A stretch of DNA of 64,000 nt. Source: Streptomyces sp. YIM 121038. GTDB lineage: Bacteria > Actinomycetota > Actinomycetes > Streptomycetales > Streptomycetaceae. This document shows, one piece after another, positions 6,515-37,522 of the stretch. The stretch spans positions 4,526,001-4,590,000 of the forward strand of contig NZ_CP030771.1 in NCBI RefSeq assembly GCF_006088715.1, written 5' to 3'. The notes under the pieces were generated by a model. It was not told where the DNA came from, searched no databases, and was given only the letters and a program-made list of their open reading frames with translations. The position numbers were made by a program, and so were the translations under genes. Each line of letters begins with the position of its first letter. Position 1 is the first letter of the stretch.

Positions 6515-6558
6515 CCCGGTGATCCTATGGCCACCGCTCACCGCCGTACCGGGGCCCC

Positions 6559-6621
6559 CGCGCGCCGGGGCTCCGCGCGGCCGGGGCTTCGCGCGGCCGG
6601 GGCTTCGCGCGGCCGGGCCCC
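6559..6621. repeat. 16-bp GC-rich tandem repeat downstream of hbpS
   Basis: Three consecutive 16-bp units built on CGCGCGGCCGGGGCTT (6574-6589, 6590-6605, 6606-6621), preceded by one degenerate unit. They fill the gap between the hbpS stop and the peptidase start and can fold into G/C-rich hairpins. Confidence 0.7.
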
Positions 6622-6632
6622 CGCGCCCGGGG

Positions 6633-7190
6633 TCAGCGGCCCAGCGCGGCCACGCCCGCCTGCGCGAACTTCTCGTCCAGGTCGCCGCTGGGCGCGCCCG
6701 CGACGCCGATGCCCGCGACGGGGGCGCCCTTCGCGGTGACCGGGGCGCCGCCCGCGAGGAACAGCGTGCCCGGGATGTCCTTGAGGTTCGGCGTCTGCGT
6801 CAGGCGCTTGGCCAGCTCGGAGGTGGGCGCGTTCCAGGAGACGGCGGTGTAGGCCTTGCGCTCGGCGGACTCGTACGACTGCGGGCCCGCGCCGTCGCCC
6901 CGCAGGGTGACGATCGTGTTGCCGTTGCGGTCGACCACGGCGACCGTGACGCGCTGGTTCTCCTTCTTCGCCGCGTCCAGCGTCGCCTGCGCGGCCTTCG
7001 TCGCGGCGGCCACGGTGAGGTGCGTGCTCTGCGTCAGGTTGCGGCTGCCCGCGTCGGCGCCGACGGCGGCCTCGGCGGCGGCCGCCGGGGCGTCGGCGCT
7101 GGCGGACACGGCACCGACCGTCCCGGCGCCGACGACGCCGAGGACGGCGGCGGCGGTGAGGACTCGGGCACGCGGCGAGAGCTGCTTCAT
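6633..7190 (-). CDS. hbpS: Secreted haem-binding protein HbpS (GlcG/HbpS family)
   Basis: The 185-residue product has a Sec-type signal (LTAAAVLGVVGAGTVGAVSASA) followed by a GlcG/HbpS domain with VTVAVVDRNGNTIVTLRGDGAG and the Gly-rich tail GAPVAGIGVAGAPSGDLDEKF. In S. reticuli, HbpS binds haem outside the cell, forms an octamer and controls the sensor kinase SenS; redox or iron stress releases this control. The divergent neighbour here is exactly such a kinase with a NarL-type partner, which makes the assignment strong. The ATG at 7190 precedes MKQLSPRARVL. Expression is probably autoregulated through the palindrome at 7328-7353. The signal lacks a twin-arginine pair. Confidence 0.9.
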   Translation of the reverse strand: MKQLSPRARVLTAAAVLGVVGAGTVGAVSASADAPAAAAEAAVGADAGSRNLTQSTHLTVAAATKAAQATLDAAKKENQRVTVAVVDRNGNTIVTLRGDGAGPQSYESAERKAYTAVSWNAPTSELAKRLTQTPNLKDIPGTLFLAGGAPVTAKGAPVAGIGVAGAPSGDLDEKFAQAGVAALGR

Positions 7191-7327
7191 GGTGTGACTC
7201 CTTGGGGCGGCACGGTCTGTGCGGCGGTACGGGTCCGGAGGCGGGCCCTGTGCTTCGATCCTCCCGGCGGGTCCCGGTCCGCCCCGTCGGCACACCGGCT
7301 GCGGGTCGCGCGCGGTTCGGATGACGT

Positions 7328-7353
7328 CCGGGTCAGCCGATCGGTTGACCCGG
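7328..7353. promoter_or_regulatory. Near-perfect 26-bp palindrome, candidate SenR operator
   Basis: CCGGGTCA (7328-7335) and TGACCCGG (7346-7353) flank a perfect CCGATCGG core (7337-7344). Only one symmetric pair in the 26 bases fails. It lies in the hbpS/senS divergent region, 138 bases from the hbpS start and 66 bases from the senS start. The right arm contains TTGACC, usable as a -35 element for senS, so a bound regulator would control this promoter directly. Confidence 0.65.
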
Positions 7354-7418
7354 GCCTGCGACCAGCGGGCCACAATGAGGGTGTTTGCCCAGTTCACGCG
7401 CGTGACAGGAGGTCGGGG

Positions 7419-8906
7419 ATGCGCGGAGGTGACGGTGCGGGAGCGGACCGTCCCGGAGCCGTGGGTCCGGAGGGCCGGGGGCCCGCGGCCGTGGGTCCGG
7501 AGAGCCGGGGGCCCGCGGCCGTCGGCCCGGAGAGCCGGGGGCCCGCGGCCGTCGGCCCGGAAAGCCGGGGGCCCGCGGCCGTCGGCCCGGAAAGCCGGGG
7601 GCCCGCGGCCGTCGGCCCGGAAAGCCGGGGGCCCGCGGCCGTCGGCCCGGAAAGCCGGTGGCCCGCGGCCGTCATGCACACCGCGTTCTTCCTGCTGCTC
7701 GCCGCCTCGCTCTCCCGCTTCCTGCTGCGCCACCCCGGCGAGCCCCGTACACCCTGGATCATCGCCCTCTCGGCCGTACTCGCCCTCCTGTACGTGCTCG
7801 GCCCGGCCCTCGGCGCCACGCCCAACCCCCGCCGTCTGCTGTGGCTCGGCGCGGTCGTCGGCGTCTGGGTGGTCCTCGTGGTCCTCGCGCCGAGCTACGC
7901 GTGGTGCGCGGTGCCGCTCTTCTACACCGGCCTGCGGACGCTGCCCACGCGCGCGGCCCTCGCCCTCGTCGCCGTCCTGACGGCCCTCGTGGTCGCGGCC
8001 CAGCTGCGGCTCGCGGACGGCTTCGACCCGAACCTGGCGTTCGCGCCGCCCGCCGTGGCGGCCGTGGCGACGGCGGTGTTCGTCCACATGCAGCGGCAGA
8101 CGGCGCGGCAGCGCGCCCTCATCGACGACCTGCTGCGCACCCGGCGCGAACTCGCCGCCACCGAACGGCGCGAGGGCACGCTCGCCGAGCGGCAGCGCCT
8201 GTCCATGGAGATCCACGACACGCTGGCCCAGGGCCTGTCCAGCCAGCGGATGCTGCTCCAGGCGGCGGACCGGGTGTGGGACACGGACGCGGCGGCGGCC
8301 CGCGCCCACGTCCGTACCGCCGGGTCCATCGCCGACCGCGGCCTGGCCGAGGCCCGCCGCCTCGTCCACGACCTGGCCCCGGTGGACCTGGCCGAGGCGG
8401 GACCCGACCCGGCGTACGCGCTGCCCGCGGCGCTGCGGACGCTGGCGGGGCGGGAGTCGGGCGCGGGCCTGACGGTCCGCTTCCACGCCGAGGGCACACC
8501 GGTCCCGCTCGCGGGCCGCGCCCGCTCGGCGCTCCTGCGGATCGCACAGGGCGCGCTGGCGAACGTACGCGAGCACGCGGGCGCGGCCACGGCCGCGCTG
8601 ACCCTGACGTACCTCGACGACCAGGTGGTCCTCGACGTGGCGGACGACGGGCGGGGGTTCGCACCACCGGCGCCCGGCGGTACGCGGGGCGCGCGGAGCG
8701 CGCGGGGGCACGGTCTCCCCGCGATCCGCGCGCGGGCGGCGCAGCTGGGCGGAACGCTGACGGTGGAGTCGGCGCCGGGCGAGGGGACGGTGCTCTCGGT
8801 GGCGATCCCGCTGGGAGCCGGTCCGTACGCGGGGCTCGACGACGAGGGCCGAGAGGGCCCAAAGGGCCCAGAGGGCCGACACGGGAGGCACGATGGACGC
8901 GGGTGA
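7419..8906 (+). CDS. senS: SenS sensor histidine kinase with N-terminal decapeptide repeats
   Basis: Membrane sensor kinase of the NarL-partner class, expected to sense HbpS outside and phosphorylate SenR. The 495 residues are: a 13-residue leader, seven AVGPESRGPA-type decapeptides (14-83), five or six membrane segments (about 86-220), HisKA_3 with MEIHDTLAQGLSSQR (phosphoacceptor His266), and HATPase_c with VADDGRGF and GHGLPAIRARA. The ATG at 7419 has a textbook AGGAGG six bases upstream. An internal ATG at 7674 would give a conventional kinase without the repeats, but no binding site as good is present. The repeat stays in frame throughout. The stop overlaps senR by 14 bases, implying translational coupling. 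Confidence 0.88.
   Translation: MRGGDGAGADRPGAVGPEGRGPAAVGPESRGPAAVGPESRGPAAVGPESRGPAAVGPESRGPAAVGPESRGPAAVGPESRWPAAVMHTAFFLLLAASLSRFLLRHPGEPRTPWIIALSAVLALLYVLGPALGATPNPRRLLWLGAVVGVWVVLVVLAPSYAWCAVPLFYTGLRTLPTRAALALVAVLTALVVAAQLRLADGFDPNLAFAPPAVAAVATAVFVHMQRQTARQRALIDDLLRTRRELAATERREGTLAERQRLSMEIHDTLAQGLSSQRMLLQAADRVWDTDAAAARAHVRTAGSIADRGLAEARRLVHDLAPVDLAEAGPDPAYALPAALRTLAGRESGAGLTVRFHAEGTPVPLAGRARSALLRIAQGALANVREHAGAATAALTLTYLDDQVVLDVADDGRGFAPPAPGGTRGARSARGHGLPAIRARAAQLGGTLTVESAPGEGTVLSVAIPLGAGPYAGLDDEGREGPKGPEGRHGRHDGRG
7458..7667 (+). repeat. Seven 30-bp tandem repeats within senS
   Basis: Seven uninterrupted 30-bp units encode AVGPESRGPA with small variations: unit 1 has G for S, and unit 7 has W for G. 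Units 3-7 are almost identical at the DNA level, a sign of recent expansion. The array lies between the senS ribosome binding site and the first membrane helix. Confidence 0.95.
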
Positions 8907-10056
8907 GGATCTGGGCCTGGGCGGGGGGCCTGGGGGCGGGGCGGGTGACGGGTCTGGCGGGGGTCCGGGGGGCGGGCCTGGCGGCAACCCGGGCGACGGC
9001 CTCGGCGGCAGCCCGAGCGGCGGGCCTGGCGGGGGCCCGGGTGGCGGACCCGGCGGCAACCCGGGTGGCGGACCCGGGGATGGCCCGGCCGGCGGGCCCG
9101 GCTGCAGCACGGGCGGCAACCCGAGCGGCAGGCCCGGCGGCAGCCCGGAGGGCGGGCCTGGCGACAACTCGGGCGGCGGACCCGGCGGGAACCCGGGTGG
9201 CGGACCCGGGGATGGCCCGGCCGGCGGGCCCGGCTGCAGCACGGGCGGCAACCCGGGCGACGGCCTCGGCGGCAGCCCGAGCGGCGGACCCGGGGATGGC
9301 CCGGGGGACGGCGCGGGCGGTGCCGTTGACGACAGCGCGGGTGGCGCCGCAGGCGGCAGCTCGGGTGGCGCCGCAGGCGACAGCTCGGGCGGCGCCGCAG
9401 GCGACAGCTCGGGCGGCAGCTCGGGTGGCTTGCCGGTCCGGCTTCTCGTCTGCGACGACCACGCCGTCGTCCGGGCGGGCCTGCTCGCCCTGCTCGGCAG
9501 CGCGCCCGGGGTCGAGGTGGTCGGGGAGGCCGGTTCCGGCGAGGAGGCGGTGGCCCTGGCCGCGAAGCTGCGGCCGGACGTCGTCCTCATGGACCTCCAA
9601 CTGGGCCCCGGGACGGACGGCGTGGAGGCCACGCGCCGCATCACGGCGGCGGCCGGGGGCGGGAGGCCGCACGTCCTTGTCCTCACCACGTACGACACCG
9701 ACGCCGACATCACCCGTGCGATCGAGGCGGGCGCCACCGGCTATCTGCTCAAGGCCGAGCGGCCCGAGGAGCTGTTCTCGGCGATCCGCGCCGCCGCGTG
9801 CGGCCGCACCGCGCTCTCGCCGCCCGTCGCGTCCCGCGTGATGGCCCGCATGCGGGAACCCCGGCCCGGCCTCACCCCGCGCGAACGCGACATCCTGGGC
9901 CAGCTGGCGCAGGGCCTCGGCAACCGCGAGATCGCCCGTGCGCTGTTCATCAGCGAGGCCACGGTGAAGACGCACCTGGGCCGCATCTACGACAAGCTCG
10001 GCGTGGAGACACGGGCGGGCGCGGTGGCCGTGGCCAAGGAACAGCGGCTCCTCTAG
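8893..10056 (+). CDS. senR: SenR response regulator with about 180-residue Gly/Pro-rich N-terminal extension
   Basis: NarL/FixJ-type regulator: a receiver at about 182-300 (acidic pair CDDH, phosphoacceptor Asp234 in VVLMDLQLG, Lys in YLLKAERPEE), then a LuxR-type helix-turn-helix at about 318-380 (LTPRERDILGQLAQGLGNREIA, ATVKTHLGRIYDKL). It is the cognate partner of SenS in the haem-responsive system. What is odd is the first 181 residues, a tetrapeptide-patterned Gly-rich stretch (GGPG, GNPG, GSPS, DGPA). The ATG at 8893 has GGGAGG close by, and no later ATG or GTG precedes the receiver in frame, so the extension is probably translated. Known SenR proteins, as I recall, begin directly at the receiver. 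Confidence 0.85.
   Translation: MDAGEDLGLGGGPGGGAGDGSGGGPGGGPGGNPGDGLGGSPSGGPGGGPGGGPGGNPGGGPGDGPAGGPGCSTGGNPSGRPGGSPEGGPGDNSGGGPGGNPGGGPGDGPAGGPGCSTGGNPGDGLGGSPSGGPGDGPGDGAGGAVDDSAGGAAGGSSGGAAGDSSGGAAGDSSGGSSGGLPVRLLVCDDHAVVRAGLLALLGSAPGVEVVGEAGSGEEAVALAAKLRPDVVLMDLQLGPGTDGVEATRRITAAAGGGRPHVLVLTTYDTDADITRAIEAGATGYLLKAERPEELFSAIRAAACGRTALSPPVASRVMARMREPRPGLTPRERDILGQLAQGLGNREIARALFISEATVKTHLGRIYDKLGVETRAGAVAVAKEQRLL
8923..9433 (+). repeat. 12-bp tandem repeat encoding the SenR extension
   Basis: Degenerate 12-bp units, four codons each and glycine rich, run almost from the start codon to the receiver domain. A larger block of about 75 bases beginning near 9056 recurs near 9188, displaced by 132 bases (eleven units). 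This shows expansion by block duplication. The region stays open in several frames because of its composition. Confidence 0.9.
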
Positions 10057-10219
10057 CCGGGCCGAAGGCTCCTCCGGCCGGGGCCTGGGCGCAGCAGCGG
10101 CTCCCTCGACCGGGCCTCGGGAACGGCACCTCCCCCGACCAGGGCCTCCTCCGGCCAGGGTCAGAGAGCAGCGGCTCTTCCCGCCGGGGCCGAGGAGCGG
10201 CGCCAGCCCTGGCCGGGGG
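10057..10219. other. Gene-free spacer after senR
   Basis: A 163-base convergent spacer built of loosely repeated CTCCGGCCGGGGCC-like and CAGCGGCTC segments that can form GC-rich hairpins. One of these probably ends both the senR transcript and the opposing transcript at 10220. No gene is seen. Confidence 0.4.
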
Positions 10220-10720
10220 CTAGGACACGCGCGGGAAGCTGGCCAGGAGGGTCCACAGGGCCGGGTTCTCGCCGAGCCCCTCGTGCAGGTCGGTCAGGTC
10301 GGCCACCACGTCGTGCAGGAAGTCGCGTGCCTCGCGGCGCAGTTCGGCGTGCGAGAAGGTGAGCGGCGGCTCGCCCGGGTCCAGCCAGTCCGCGTCGATG
10401 TCGACCCACCCGAAGCGCCGCTCGAAGAGCATCCGGTCCGTGGACTCGGTGAAGTCCAGCTCGGCGTGCTGGGGCCGCGCGGCCCTGCTGCCCATCGGGT
10501 CCTGGTCGAGCCGCTCCGCGATGTCGCACAGGGCCCACGCGAAGTCGAGCACCGGCACCCATCCCCAGGCTGTGGACAGCTCCCGGTCGGCCTTGGTGTC
10601 GGCCAGGTACACGTCCCCGCAGAACAGGTCGTGCCGCAGGGTGTGGACGTCCGCGGTGCGGTAGTCCAGCTGGGGCGGGTCGGGGAAGCGGCGGGAGAGG
10701 GCGTAGCCGATGTCGAGCAC
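10220..10720 (-). CDS. Conserved hypothetical protein, 166 residues
   Basis: I do not recognise this family with certainty. The protein is soluble and acidic, with no signal peptide or membrane helix. Visible features are an N-terminal MLDIGYALSRRFPDPPQLDY, a WGWVPVLDFAWALCDIAERL helix, an aromatic FGWVDIDADWLDPG segment, and a C-terminal helical part (RREARDFLHDVVADLTDL). The start is a GTG at 10720 with GAGG just upstream. It is convergent with senR and followed in its own upstream direction by a long repeat region, so it is probably a single-gene unit. Codon use matches its neighbours, which supports a real gene. Confidence 0.7.
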   Translation of the reverse strand: MLDIGYALSRRFPDPPQLDYRTADVHTLRHDLFCGDVYLADTKADRELSTAWGWVPVLDFAWALCDIAERLDQDPMGSRAARPQHAELDFTESTDRMLFERRFGWVDIDADWLDPGEPPLTFSHAELRREARDFLHDVVADLTDLHEGLGENPALWTLLASFPRVS

Positions 10721-10830
10721 GCCTCGATGGTGCCATGCGCGCCCCCCGCCCCCTCACGCCCGCTACGCCGCTACGCCCCACGCGACCGCCCCCGCACAAC
10801 CGCCCTCCACCTCGGGCGCCCCCTAGCCCC

Positions 10831-11099
10831 CCCCGGATAGCCACCCTCTATCCGCGCGGCCCCTGGCCACCCCGCACAGTTGCCCTCCACCCCACGCGGC
10901 CCCTAGCCACCCCGCACAGTTGCCCTCCACCCCACGCGGCCCCTAGCCACCCCGCACAGTTGCCCTCCACCCCACGCGGCCCCTAGCCACCCCGCACAGT
11001 TGCCCTCCACCCCACGCGGCCCCTAGCCACCCCGCACAGTTGCCCTCCACCCCGCGCGAGCCCTGGCCACCCACGCAGCCGCCCGCCGTCCCGCACGAG
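10831..11099. repeat. 40-bp tandem repeat array
   Basis: Five consecutive 40-bp units at 10861-10900, 10901-10940, 10941-10980, 10981-11020 and 11021-11060. Units 2, 3 and 4 appear identical, unit 1 has one change, and unit 5 is altered at its end. Degenerate units extend on both sides. There are no spacers, so this is a minisatellite and not a CRISPR array. Confidence 0.95.
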
Positions 11100-12339
11100 C
11101 CCTGGCTGTCGCCCTCCGCCCCGGGCCACCGTCAGCCGCCCGAGGAAGCGGCCTCCGCCCCGGTACCGGCCCCACCCACCGACGAGCCCAGGCCACGCGT
11201 GTCCGAGCTGGTCCCACCCACCCGCCCCCACCTGCGGCAGCAGGCCCCCAGGCCCAAGCCCCACCCGGTCAAGCCAAGAGCCACGGGCGAACAGTTGGCA
11301 AAGCCCCTCACGGCCACCGCGCCCGGTACCACCGACGAGCCACGCCGCGCGCGCCCCGGCCAGCCCCACCCACCTACGACAGCAAGGGCCAGGCACGAGC
11401 CCTCCCCGGCGAGGCCGGAAGCCACAAGCGGACATGCGGGAGAACCCGTGCGGCAGCAGCAGCGGCGCCATCCGGCCAGCCACAGCGGCCACCGCCACCG
11501 ACACCGAGCCCACGCCGCGCCCGAGCCCCCGACCTCAACCAGCGACAGCGAGGGCCCCCGGCGTAAGCCCCACCCCGCGCGGCCAGGGGCCACGAGCGAG
11601 CAGGCGGGGAGAGCCCTCCTGCGGCAGCGGCAGCGGCAGCGGCGCCACCCAACCAGCCACAGCCCCCGACCGGCGCCACCGTCAAACCCACGTGCCACCG
11701 TCCCGGGCCGATCCACCGTCCGCCGCCAACGAGCCCACGCCACGCGCCCGGGCCAGTCCCCCCCCCGGCCCCCACCCGGCGAAGCCAGGAGCAACGGGTG
11801 GGTGGGTGGGAAAGCCCGCCGCGGTAGCGGCGGGGCCACACGACCAGCCGCAGCGCCCCGCGTCGGACCCGCGCAGGCGAAAGCCGGGGCGGTACGGGTG
11901 GGAGGGCGGGAAGGCCCGCCAGGGCCAAGCGGCACCGGACCGACAGGAACACCCCGCCAGGGCTGAGCCGCAGGCCCCGGACAAGGCCCGCAGAGGCAGG
12001 GCTGCGCCGGGACAGCGGAGAAGGCCCGCCACGGCAGGGCTGCGCCAGGGCCGGGGAGAGGCCCGGCAGGGCAGGGGGCAAGGCGGCAGAGGAAGCCCGC
12101 CACAGCAAGGCCACAGGCAAGGCGACGGCAGGCCCTGGCGGCAGGGCCGGGCGCGGTGGGGGCAGGCCCCAGCCGCAGGGCCGGGTGGGGTGGGGGCAGG
12201 CCCCGGTGGCAGGGCCGGGTGGGGTGGGGGTGGCGCTGTGGCGGGGGCTCCCGCCAGGCCCTGGCCTGGCGATGTCACACCGGCCAGGGGCAGACCCGTC
12301 GTACCCGTACGAGGACCACGACAGAAACGGACCCCACCC
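11100..12339. repeat. 1.2-kb block of degenerate long repeats, no gene
   Basis: Four imperfect units of about 150-230 bp run from about 11160 to 11900. Each contains a CCACGAGC.GGCAG..GGGAA-type core and a CGAGCCCACGCC-type end. They are followed by three 34-bp units starting at 12141, 12175 and 12209 (built on GCAGGGCCGGGTGGGGTGG). Part of the last long unit (about 11847-11910) closely matches 36158-36220. Long open frames cross the block on both strands, but they are repetitive Pro/Arg/Gly translations without family character. Promoter elements for the next gene must lie within it. Confidence 0.8.
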
Positions 12340-14628: not shown

Positions 14629-14780
14629 GCCCCCACCCGGCTGTCCCCCTGCCCGTCCGATCCGCCGGGCCCCCGGGCCGGGCCCGCCCGATCCGCCGAG
14701 CCGGGCCCGCCCGGGATGCGCGGTCCCACTCCGGCAAAAATCGGATGCCCATGCGGCTTTCGCGAACTACCGTCCGGATT

Positions 14781-16046
14781 ATGGACTCCGCACCCCCCAG
14801 CCCGGCCCCGTCCACCACCATCACGTTCCGCGACCTGCCGGACACCGATCTGGACCGCGCCCTCGACCTGGTCTACCTCGCCTTCCACGAGACCCCGGAG
14901 GACGAGAAGCGCAAGCACCACCACGACCTGCTGCGCGGCTGCGACCGCGTCGGCGCGTACGACGGGGAGACCCTGGTCGGCCTCCTCGCCGCCTTCCGCT
15001 TCACCATGTCCGTGCCGGGCGGCGAACTGCCGTGCCCCAGCGTCACGTTCGTCTCCGTCGCGCCCACGCACCGCCGCCGCGGCGTGCTCTCCGGCATGGT
15101 CGCGGCGCTCTTCGAGAGATGCGGCGCGAGCGGCCGTCCGCTGGCGGCGCTGTGGGCCTCGGAGGACGCGATCTACGGCCGCTTCGGCTTCGGCCCGGCC
15201 ACGTACAACAACACCGTCGAGGTGAAGTCCGAGCGCCCCCTGGCCCTGCGGATCACCCCGGCCGAAGGACCCCTGCGCCTGGTGGACCCGGCGGCCGCCC
15301 CCGCGCTGCTCGCCGAGTACTACGACCGTACGCGCGCCGCCCGCGCGGGCCGCATCGACCGCACCGAGGCCTGGTGGCGCGAGGAATGGATGGCCACGGA
15401 GGACGAGGACGACGACGACCTGTCGCCCCCGCGCGTCGTGGTCCTCGGAGACGCGGCCGACCCCGAGCGCGTCACCGGGTACGCCATCTACCGCACCAAG
15501 GGCCGCGACGACGCCCCCGGCCTGGTCCGCCTGGACGAGCTGGAGGCGGACACGCCGGAGGCCGAGGCCGCACTGTGGCGCTATCTGGCGTCGATCGACC
15601 TGACCGGCCTGATCCAGGCGTGGGGCCGCCCGCTCGACGACCCGCTGCTCCTGTTCGCCGGGGACCGCGACCAGGTCCGCGTGACGGGCCAGTACCCGGG
15701 CCTGCGGGTCCGGCTCGTCGACGTGCGCGCCGCGCTGCTCGCCCGCTCCTGGGCGGCCCCCGCCGACCTGGTCCTGGAGGTCCGCGACCCCCAGCTCCCC
15801 GCCAACGAGGGCCGCTTCCGCCTGACGGTCACCGACGCGGACGGCCCGGCGGCGTACGAGCCGACCGACGCCCCCGCCGACCTCACCCTCGACGTGCGGG
15901 ACCTCGGCTCGGCCTACCTCGGCGGCGCGCCGCTCGTGTCCTTCGTACGGGCGGGCACCGTCACCGAGCACACGCCGGGCGCGGCCGCCGCCCTGGACGC
16001 GGCGCTCACGACCGCGCTGCTGCCGCACACGGTCGACGCGTTCTAG
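14781..16046 (+). CDS. Eis-like GNAT N-acetyltransferase
   Basis: A 421-residue three-domain acetyltransferase of the Eis family: an N-terminal GNAT domain, a second GNAT-like domain and a C-terminal SCP2-like domain (about 310-421). The acetyl-CoA site is visible as VTFVSVAPTHRRRGVLSGMV. The protein ends in -VDAF; in mycobacterial Eis the free carboxylate of the terminal Phe is the catalytic base, so this end appears functional. Eis enzymes acetylate amines, including aminoglycosides, at several positions. The ATG at 14781 is preferred on homology, but the binding site is weak; an ATG at 14745 is possible. Confidence 0.85.
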   Translation: MDSAPPSPAPSTTITFRDLPDTDLDRALDLVYLAFHETPEDEKRKHHHDLLRGCDRVGAYDGETLVGLLAAFRFTMSVPGGELPCPSVTFVSVAPTHRRRGVLSGMVAALFERCGASGRPLAALWASEDAIYGRFGFGPATYNNTVEVKSERPLALRITPAEGPLRLVDPAAAPALLAEYYDRTRAARAGRIDRTEAWWREEWMATEDEDDDDLSPPRVVVLGDAADPERVTGYAIYRTKGRDDAPGLVRLDELEADTPEAEAALWRYLASIDLTGLIQAWGRPLDDPLLLFAGDRDQVRVTGQYPGLRVRLVDVRAALLARSWAAPADLVLEVRDPQLPANEGRFRLTVTDADGPAAYEPTDAPADLTLDVRDLGSAYLGGAPLVSFVRAGTVTEHTPGAAAALDAALTTALLPHTVDAF

Positions 16047-36979: not shown

Positions 36980-37522
36980 ATGGGCATGCTGCGTGACACA
37001 GGCCGCTTCGTCGTCCGGATCGGCACGGGAACAGCTCACGGCTTCATCTGGCTCGTCACCCACTTCTATGACTACGCGCTCACCCCCACCGGGCACTTCT
37101 TCGCCTTCCTCGGCACCGGAACAGCCCGGTGCTTCCTGTGGCTCGCCACCCGCTCCTACGACCACGTACTCACCCCCACCGGGCACCTCTTCGCCTTCCT
37201 CGGCACCGGAACAGCCCGGTGCTTCCTGTGGCTCGTCACCCACTTCTATGACTACGTGCTCACCCCCACGGGGCACTTCTTCGCCTTCCTCGGCACGGAA
37301 ACAGCCCACGGCACCGCATGGCTCGCCATCCGCTCCTACGACTACGCCCTCACGCCCTTCGGGCACGGCTGTGTCTGGCTGCTCGTGTTCGTGTGGGAGC
37401 GCCTGATTCTCTGGCTGGTCCACTTCGTGCTCAGTGAGGAACTGGCCAAAGTCGCCGTGTCGGCGATCCTTCTGGAGATCGCCGTACTGCCCTTGCTCCG
37501 GAGGTGGCGCGGCGAGAAGTGA
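36980..37522 (+). CDS. Membrane protein built of four 30-residue tandem repeats
   Basis: I do not recognise this family. After 14 residues (MGMLRDTGRFVVRI) come four consecutive 30-residue units (15-134). Each runs GTGTAxxFxWL, then a THFYDY or TRSYDH aromatic turn, then xLTPTGHxFAFL. A C-terminal hydrophobic region (CVWLLVFVWERLILWLVHFVL, AVSAILLEIAVLPLL) with a basic end (RRWRGEK) looks membrane embedded. The repeats are amphipathic and aromatic, and may lie in or on the membrane. ATG at 36980 with AGAGG upstream; an ATG at 36986 is possible. Lower G+C and codon use unlike the neighbours suggest late acquisition. Confidence 0.72.
   Translation: MGMLRDTGRFVVRIGTGTAHGFIWLVTHFYDYALTPTGHFFAFLGTGTARCFLWLATRSYDHVLTPTGHLFAFLGTGTARCFLWLVTHFYDYVLTPTGHFFAFLGTETAHGTAWLAIRSYDYALTPFGHGCVWLLVFVWERLILWLVHFVLSEELAKVAVSAILLEIAVLPLLRRWRGEK
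37022..37381 (+). repeat. Four 90-bp tandem repeats within the membrane protein gene
   Basis: Units at 37022-37111, 37112-37201, 37202-37291 and 37292-37381. Units 1 and 3 share the THFYDY version; units 2 and 4 share the RSYD version. The alternation suggests that a 180-bp pair was duplicated. Confidence 0.93.

Follow-up and report, generated by a model that had tools for sequence, protein, structure and literature searches.

Response regulators of the NarL/FixJ type usually measure about 200–220 amino acids and begin with their receiver domain, yet the SenR-like regulator encoded in Streptomyces sp. YIM 121038 runs to 387 amino acids, with a receiver that starts only at about residue 182. 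What the residues ahead of the receiver are, whether they are translated, and whether they serve a purpose are the questions raised by this locus, which lies in a stretch of 64,000 nucleotides (contig NZ_CP030771.1, positions 4,526,001 to 4,590,000; hereafter the window, in whose numbering all coordinates are given). The regulator gene senR (8893..10056, + strand) follows the histidine kinase gene senS (7419..8906, + strand; 495 aa, HisKA_3/HATPase_c domains), with a 14-nt overlap between the senS stop and the senR start. An original prediction, made from the DNA letters, described a glycine-rich extension on SenR and a second repeat-encoded arm on SenS, and took the pair as a hint that the two proteins meet through them. 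Both arms exist, the second one being encoded by 7.2 copies of a 30-bp unit at 7458..7673 (+ strand; Tandem Repeats Finder, TRF). We consider it probable that SenR starts at ATG 8893 and bears a disordered arm of recent origin, specific to its lineage and for the most part tolerated, grown by repeat expansion on an otherwise ordinary NarL-type regulator.

The SenR arm and its relatives

The SenR extension is confirmed as real, in-frame and unusual. From its ATG start codon, senR encodes a disordered Gly-rich arm, a receiver and a LuxR/GerE helix-turn-helix (HTH) domain, as delimited by the open reading frame (ORF), Pfam and an AlphaFold2 model. The arm-coding region (8893..9432, + strand; residues 1–180, recognized by composition and low model confidence) is of low complexity, with 89 Gly, 25 Pro, 19 Ser, 14 Asp and 13 Ala residues. 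The bulk of it consists of 29 units of 12 bp (8953..9304, + strand) that mostly encode the tetrapeptide P-G-G-X, in which X is G, N, S or D; among lags of 3–299 nt, the 24 best self-matches are all multiples of 12, which identifies 12 bp as the basic unit. The predicted length of about 181 residues is thus borne out, and the predicted 132-bp internal block duplication was recovered as a repeat of 2.5 copies at 8980..9305 (+ strand; TRF score 529, 86% matches). A 24-bp array of 4.6 copies (9307..9417, + strand; TRF) encoding Gly, Ala, Ser and Asp follows. Computed masses are 14.0 kDa for the arm, 35.7 kDa for whole SenR and 21.8 kDa for SenR begun at the TTG codon discussed below, close to the shift of about 15 kDa and the standard size of about 22 kDa that had been anticipated. 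The arm holds 14 Asp and 2 Glu against a single Arg; its computed isoelectric point (pI) is 4.05, and its presence moves that of SenR from 8.01 to 4.67.

Downstream of the arm, the protein is conventional. As had been foreseen, the receiver (PF00072, residues 185–299, E 3.9e-22, 79 bits; 9445..9789, + strand) and the LuxR-type/GerE HTH (PF00196, residues 327–381, E 2.6e-19, 69 bits; 9871..10035, + strand) are both complete and score above the curated Pfam cut-offs, in the order typical of the NarL/FixJ layout. Residues D188/D189, D234, T265/T266 and K287, which we take to be the acidic pair, the phospho-acceptor Asp, the Thr and the Lys of the receiver, are invariant in a 30-row alignment. In the AlphaFold2 model built from 30 rows, the predicted local distance difference test score (pLDDT) is 38–46, about 42, over residues 1–170 and mostly 75–97 past residue 180, and on this model the arm is most likely intrinsically disordered. 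The closest solved structure, ChrA of Corynebacterium diphtheriae (4yn8; E 3.7e-52 over the whole protein), shares the receiver and GerE HTH with SenR but has a matched chain of 203 residues without a long N-terminal extension. The best 120 database relatives listed are 212–250 aa long, lengths below 213 falling largely outside the candidate range, and no NCBIfam equivalog reaches its cut-off, the best, MadR, scoring 166 of 300 bits; among the 25 models listed, none carries the name SenR.

For comparison we used the best-scoring loci from three capped searches (30 loci; the best 80 of 521; and 30 loci, with 216 of 392 genomes matched). After removal of L026 and L043 (SenS not found), L028 and L030 (no motif) and duplicate rows, 128 distinct loci with both senS and senR were retained, our own included; this set does not comprise every orthologue, and L027 and L029, only 58–59% identical, may be paralogues. 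The search for the Gly-rich arm in SenR orthologues that the original prediction had proposed found none as long in the 127 other loci, read in the DNA itself, and we therefore reject a conserved arm overlooked by annotation. The junction between the SenS kinase core and the SenR receiver spans 622 nt here, and 56 nt (median), 214 nt (95th percentile) and 554 nt (maximum) in the 127 others; SenR extensions counted from an overlapping start lie between 2 and 23 aa in the central 90% of 113 loci. Elsewhere, the longest unambiguous extension is that of L137 (genome G101), a 63-aa Gly/Ser/Pro-rich segment whose GTG start and the SenS stop overlap over 4 nt; it is an analogue of the SenR arm that is independently built, a third as long and different in sequence. 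A possible 107-aa extension in L040 is not Gly-rich, and an ATG 10 aa ahead of its receiver has the better ribosome site; the dropped locus L028 has a 57-aa extension rich in Ala, Gly and Ser.

The nearest relatives place the repeats elsewhere. In G237, the closest relative found (SenR 94% and SenS 87.5% identical), the junction of 554 nt is filled by repeats lying 5' of the stop/start overlap, which give SenS a 154-aa tail rich in GPGP and HH, and SenR has an extension of 31 aa. The tail arrays (locus L145, ~8646–9005) have units of 33, 30, 48 and 42 bp, all divisible by three, with a third-position bias that is weak and mixed between lags. Three further regulators with 93% identity, two from S. 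longispororuber and one from Streptomyces sp. CC224B, carry 27, 31 and 40 extra Ala/Pro-rich residues, and long SenS tails recur in S. flavofungini (L088; 115 aa, junction 367 nt), L008 (100 aa) and L002 (77 aa). Of 7991 scored candidates, none proved related to the arm alone at E<=1e-5, and two database searches (best 120 each) returned no protein identical to SenR. Origin of the arm as a copy of another genome segment was also rejected, as besides itself it has only three weak matches (E 0.007–0.47). Judged from these comparisons, the arm is probably recent and lineage-specific.

Within the own genome, 58 HisKA_3 and 97 receiver matches form 45 same-strand pairs within 2.5 kb, with a median kinase-to-receiver distance of 483 nt and one of 1055 nt for senS-senR. 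The others among the eight largest distances include four pairs with spacers of 161–858 nt from kinase stop to receiver, one kinase that carries an additional C-terminal domain, another with a lengthened tail, and a pair at 2353 that shares its regulator with a pair at 719. As far as the choice of start allows, none of these other pairs has a repeat-built regulator N-terminus.

Probable translation from ATG 8893

Translation of the arm from ATG 8893 appears very probable. The open frame is no proof of it, because the arm stretch is free of stops in five of the six frames; the case is carried by the ribosome-binding site, by the overlap of start and stop, by the uneven variation of the units across codon positions and by the periods of the in-gene arrays. 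A Shine-Dalgarno (SD)-like GGGAGG (8883..8888, + strand) containing a full GGAGG match lies 4 nt 5' of the ATG. Overlap of the senR start with the senS stop is the rule, occurring in 114 of the 128 loci. In the SenR frame, the 29 units show a mean column entropy of 0.63, 0.60 and 1.25 bits at codon positions 1, 2 and 3, a third-position excess that is matched by 2 of 495 choices of four columns and is present at lags of both 12 and 36. Finally, the periods of the arrays inside senS and senR (132, 24 and 30 bp) are all divisible by three, and those of the neighbouring arrays outside genes (32, 40, 38 and 34 bp) are not.

Several observations weigh against our reading. The column test assumes exchangeable columns and independent units, and the units are not independent. 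Between copies of the 132-bp block there are 10, 9 and 11 mismatches at codon positions 1, 2 and 3, without bias, and the 24-bp array (2/4/4 mismatches) and the SenS array (2/0/3) are too uniform to tell. Third-position GC is 0.84 in the arm and 0.95 in the remainder of senR, and the overlap of 14 nt departs from the usual 4 nt, found in 107 loci. Moreover, if the third-position bias stems from peptide selection, the arm would not be entirely neutral.

The alternative that the arm is untranslated, with SenR starting at a TTG (9430..9432, + strand) and the 540 nt before it forming an expanded senS-senR spacer, is unlikely. The original prediction had named a start at a TTG near 9428 as one of the findings that would undo the arm. 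Such a codon does exist, as the sole other in-frame ATG, GTG or TTG between the ATG and the receiver, and its position two codons ahead of the receiver core is where many relatives start; the uninformative open frame and the atypical codon usage of the arm also agree with it. Its SD match is weak (3/5), however, set against the full SD and start/stop overlap at ATG 8893, and both the bias in the SenR frame and the multiples of three, confined here to the in-gene arrays, speak against a spacer.

Proposed growth of the arm and the idea of paired function

Under the favoured explanation, a 12-bp GGN/CCN unit just 3' of the senS-stop/senR-start overlap would have expanded in recent times, through slippage during replication or through unequal crossing-over, inside a zone in which several unrelated tandem arrays grew. 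Since 12, 24 and 132 are all divisible by three, no step broke the frame. In G237, expansion just 5' of the same overlap would have lengthened the SenS tail instead, and the sister pair shows that the side of the overlap on which repeats grow decides which partner receives them.

The zone itself (6552–12230, 5.7 kb) holds seven tandem arrays with differing units at a TRF score of at least 100, three within senS and senR and four outside genes. The latter comprise a 32-bp array (6552..6632), where the conserved coding of relatives stops short, a 40-bp array of 7.2 copies (10790..11077), and arrays of 38 and 34 bp (11978..12230) 5' of where the following gene becomes conserved, none of them assigned a strand. 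They are placed outside genes because homology with relatives puts the start of the peptidase gene below 6541 and that of a 166-aa ORF at 10720, and because the FAD-type gene is conserved only after 12340, the open stretch before it having no match. The cluster is local, since a 400-kb sample of the own genome contains 16 arrays (4 per 100 kb) and at most two in any 5.7 kb, on which ground we also reject genome-wide repeat richness as the cause. A Poisson estimate for seven arrays in 5.7 kb is 5e-9 (9e-6 chromosome-wide), a rough figure as arrays cluster. Samples of G332 and G271 contain 8 and 12 arrays and 400 kb of G237 contain 49, and the density in G237 (12.2 per 100 kb, though sampled at the contig ends of a draft) weighs on the other side, as growth may be clade-wide too.

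Tolerance of such an arm is plausible on structural grounds. In the receiver fold, the start of strand beta-1 faces away from the phosphorylation pocket. The arm is expected to exit at this point, so that it should be compatible with phosphotransfer and DNA binding; a modest side effect may be that its 16 acidic residues weaken SenR binding to DNA. If the arm is made, it lets one see in a natural case what amount of disordered mass a two-component regulator tolerates at the N-terminus of its receiver, and by itself it does not indicate a new signalling mechanism.

A stronger role for the charge, in which the acidic arm competes with or repels DNA, weakens SenR binding and resets the thresholds of repression or activation, is improbable. 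The drop in pI and the excess of Asp and Glu would suit it, and the third-position bias of unit variation suggests some peptide constraint, but no examined relative has such an arm, the acidic residues arrive with the repeats, and the extensions in the sister proteins are short and rich in Ala and Pro. Decidedly unlikely is a broader reading that treats the translationally coupled senS-senR stop/start as a pivot at which slippage repeats lengthen either the kinase tail or the regulator arm and so let lineages rapidly tune kinase-regulator stoichiometry, tethering or DNA affinity, with both cytoplasmic arms and the acidic charge of SenR selected here to change signalling through co-localisation or weaker DNA binding.

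Very unlikely, too, and not supported here, is the functional pairing of the original prediction, by which contact or phase separation (condensates) of the two arms would tether SenS to SenR. Low-complexity arms are present on both proteins, and in the AlphaFold2 model of SenS (42 rows) the arm has a pLDDT below 50 and precedes six helices ahead of the kinase core (77–104, 111–131, 137–156, 158–174, 177–198 and 204–286). Were all six to span the membrane, the N-terminus would lie in the cytoplasm, where contact with the SenR arm is conceivable; this placement is uncertain, as the fourth helix is short. Against this, the SenS unit AVGPESRGPA is unrelated to the PGGX of SenR, and in G237 it is the SenS tail that has expanded, while the N-terminus of its SenS is of another build (65–67 aa at full-SD GTGs, Gly-rich, unlike our own in sequence). 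The spacing of the SenS N-terminus and the SenR extension are uncorrelated (rho 0.10, p 0.53, 38 loci), and neither this nor a second arm-length correlation (rho 0.19; 38 of 121 loci usable) is significant in a set that lacks the own locus and its closest relative. The four unrelated arrays outside genes in the same 5.7 kb tell against pairing as well: one local repeat-growing zone can give each of two genes of an operon an arm without any shared function, and paired arms in an operon should be read with this warning in mind. A role of the repeats as DNA or RNA, with a G-quadruplex (G4) or hairpin throttling senR translation relative to senS, is barely conceivable and was rejected as the function of the arm, as the G4-type run shortly 3' of the start codon (8913–8976) covers 64 nt against a shuffled mean of 70 (272 of 500 shuffles reach 64) and the very stable RNA fold (-385.7 kcal/mol over 601 nt) barely exceeds dinucleotide shuffles (z -2.0; 1 of 20 as stable).

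The HbpS-SenS-SenR setting and neighbouring features

HbpS-SenS-SenR is a redox- and heme-responsive system described from Streptomyces reticuli and S. coelicolor (PMC4991794, PMC3184428, PMC3754957), and for S. reticuli, HbpS-dependent autophosphorylation of SenS and binding of SenR to its target DNA are reported (PMC3184428). In the window, an hbpS-like gene (6636..7190, - strand; PF03928, Pfam) diverges from senS, and the hbpS-, senS- and senR-like genes cluster within 6636–10056, side by side in all nine relatives fetched as well. The locus thus resembles, from its genes alone, the published system as far as the available parts of those papers describe it (adjoining genes, a NarL-type regulator and a HisKA_3-type membrane kinase), and differs in the 180-residue SenR repeat arm and the 85-residue SenS N-terminal segment; the same parts do not mention a SenR arm. 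In four of ten loci the corresponding SenS segment measures 16–23 residues at the nearest full-SD start. Among the articles retrieved, subscription journals being mostly outside the scope, none by its title dealt with Gly-rich or disordered N-terminal extensions or repeat-length variation in response regulators.

Coding minisatellites cause repeat-length variation in low-complexity protein linkers. The senR arm resembles them in its units divisible by three, its disordered product and the rapid change of length between relatives, and differs in that it affects a two-component regulator beside a start/stop overlap, where either partner may be lengthened.

The intergenic region between hbpS and senS contains a 22-bp palindrome, GGGTCANCCGATCGGNTGACCC (7330..7351, no strand assigned), as a candidate operator. 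With at most 4 mismatches, it is present at 93 of 125 loci, as opposed to none of 125 downstream control stretches, and at 3 mismatches or fewer it is the sole site in the own genome; it is unlike the SenR site III printed in the available text of PMC4991794. A 9-bp array lies in the SenS C-terminal tail (8844..8877, + strand; TRF). Elsewhere in the window, a 90/180-bp tandem repeat occupies 37020–37366 (TRF score 512). In G000, the same kinase and regulator matches recur in mirrored order near both ends of contigs C1 (10.13 Mb) and C2 (~0.97 Mb) (14673–14873 and counterparts), and the chromosome and a second linear replicon appear to have terminal inverted repeats in common.

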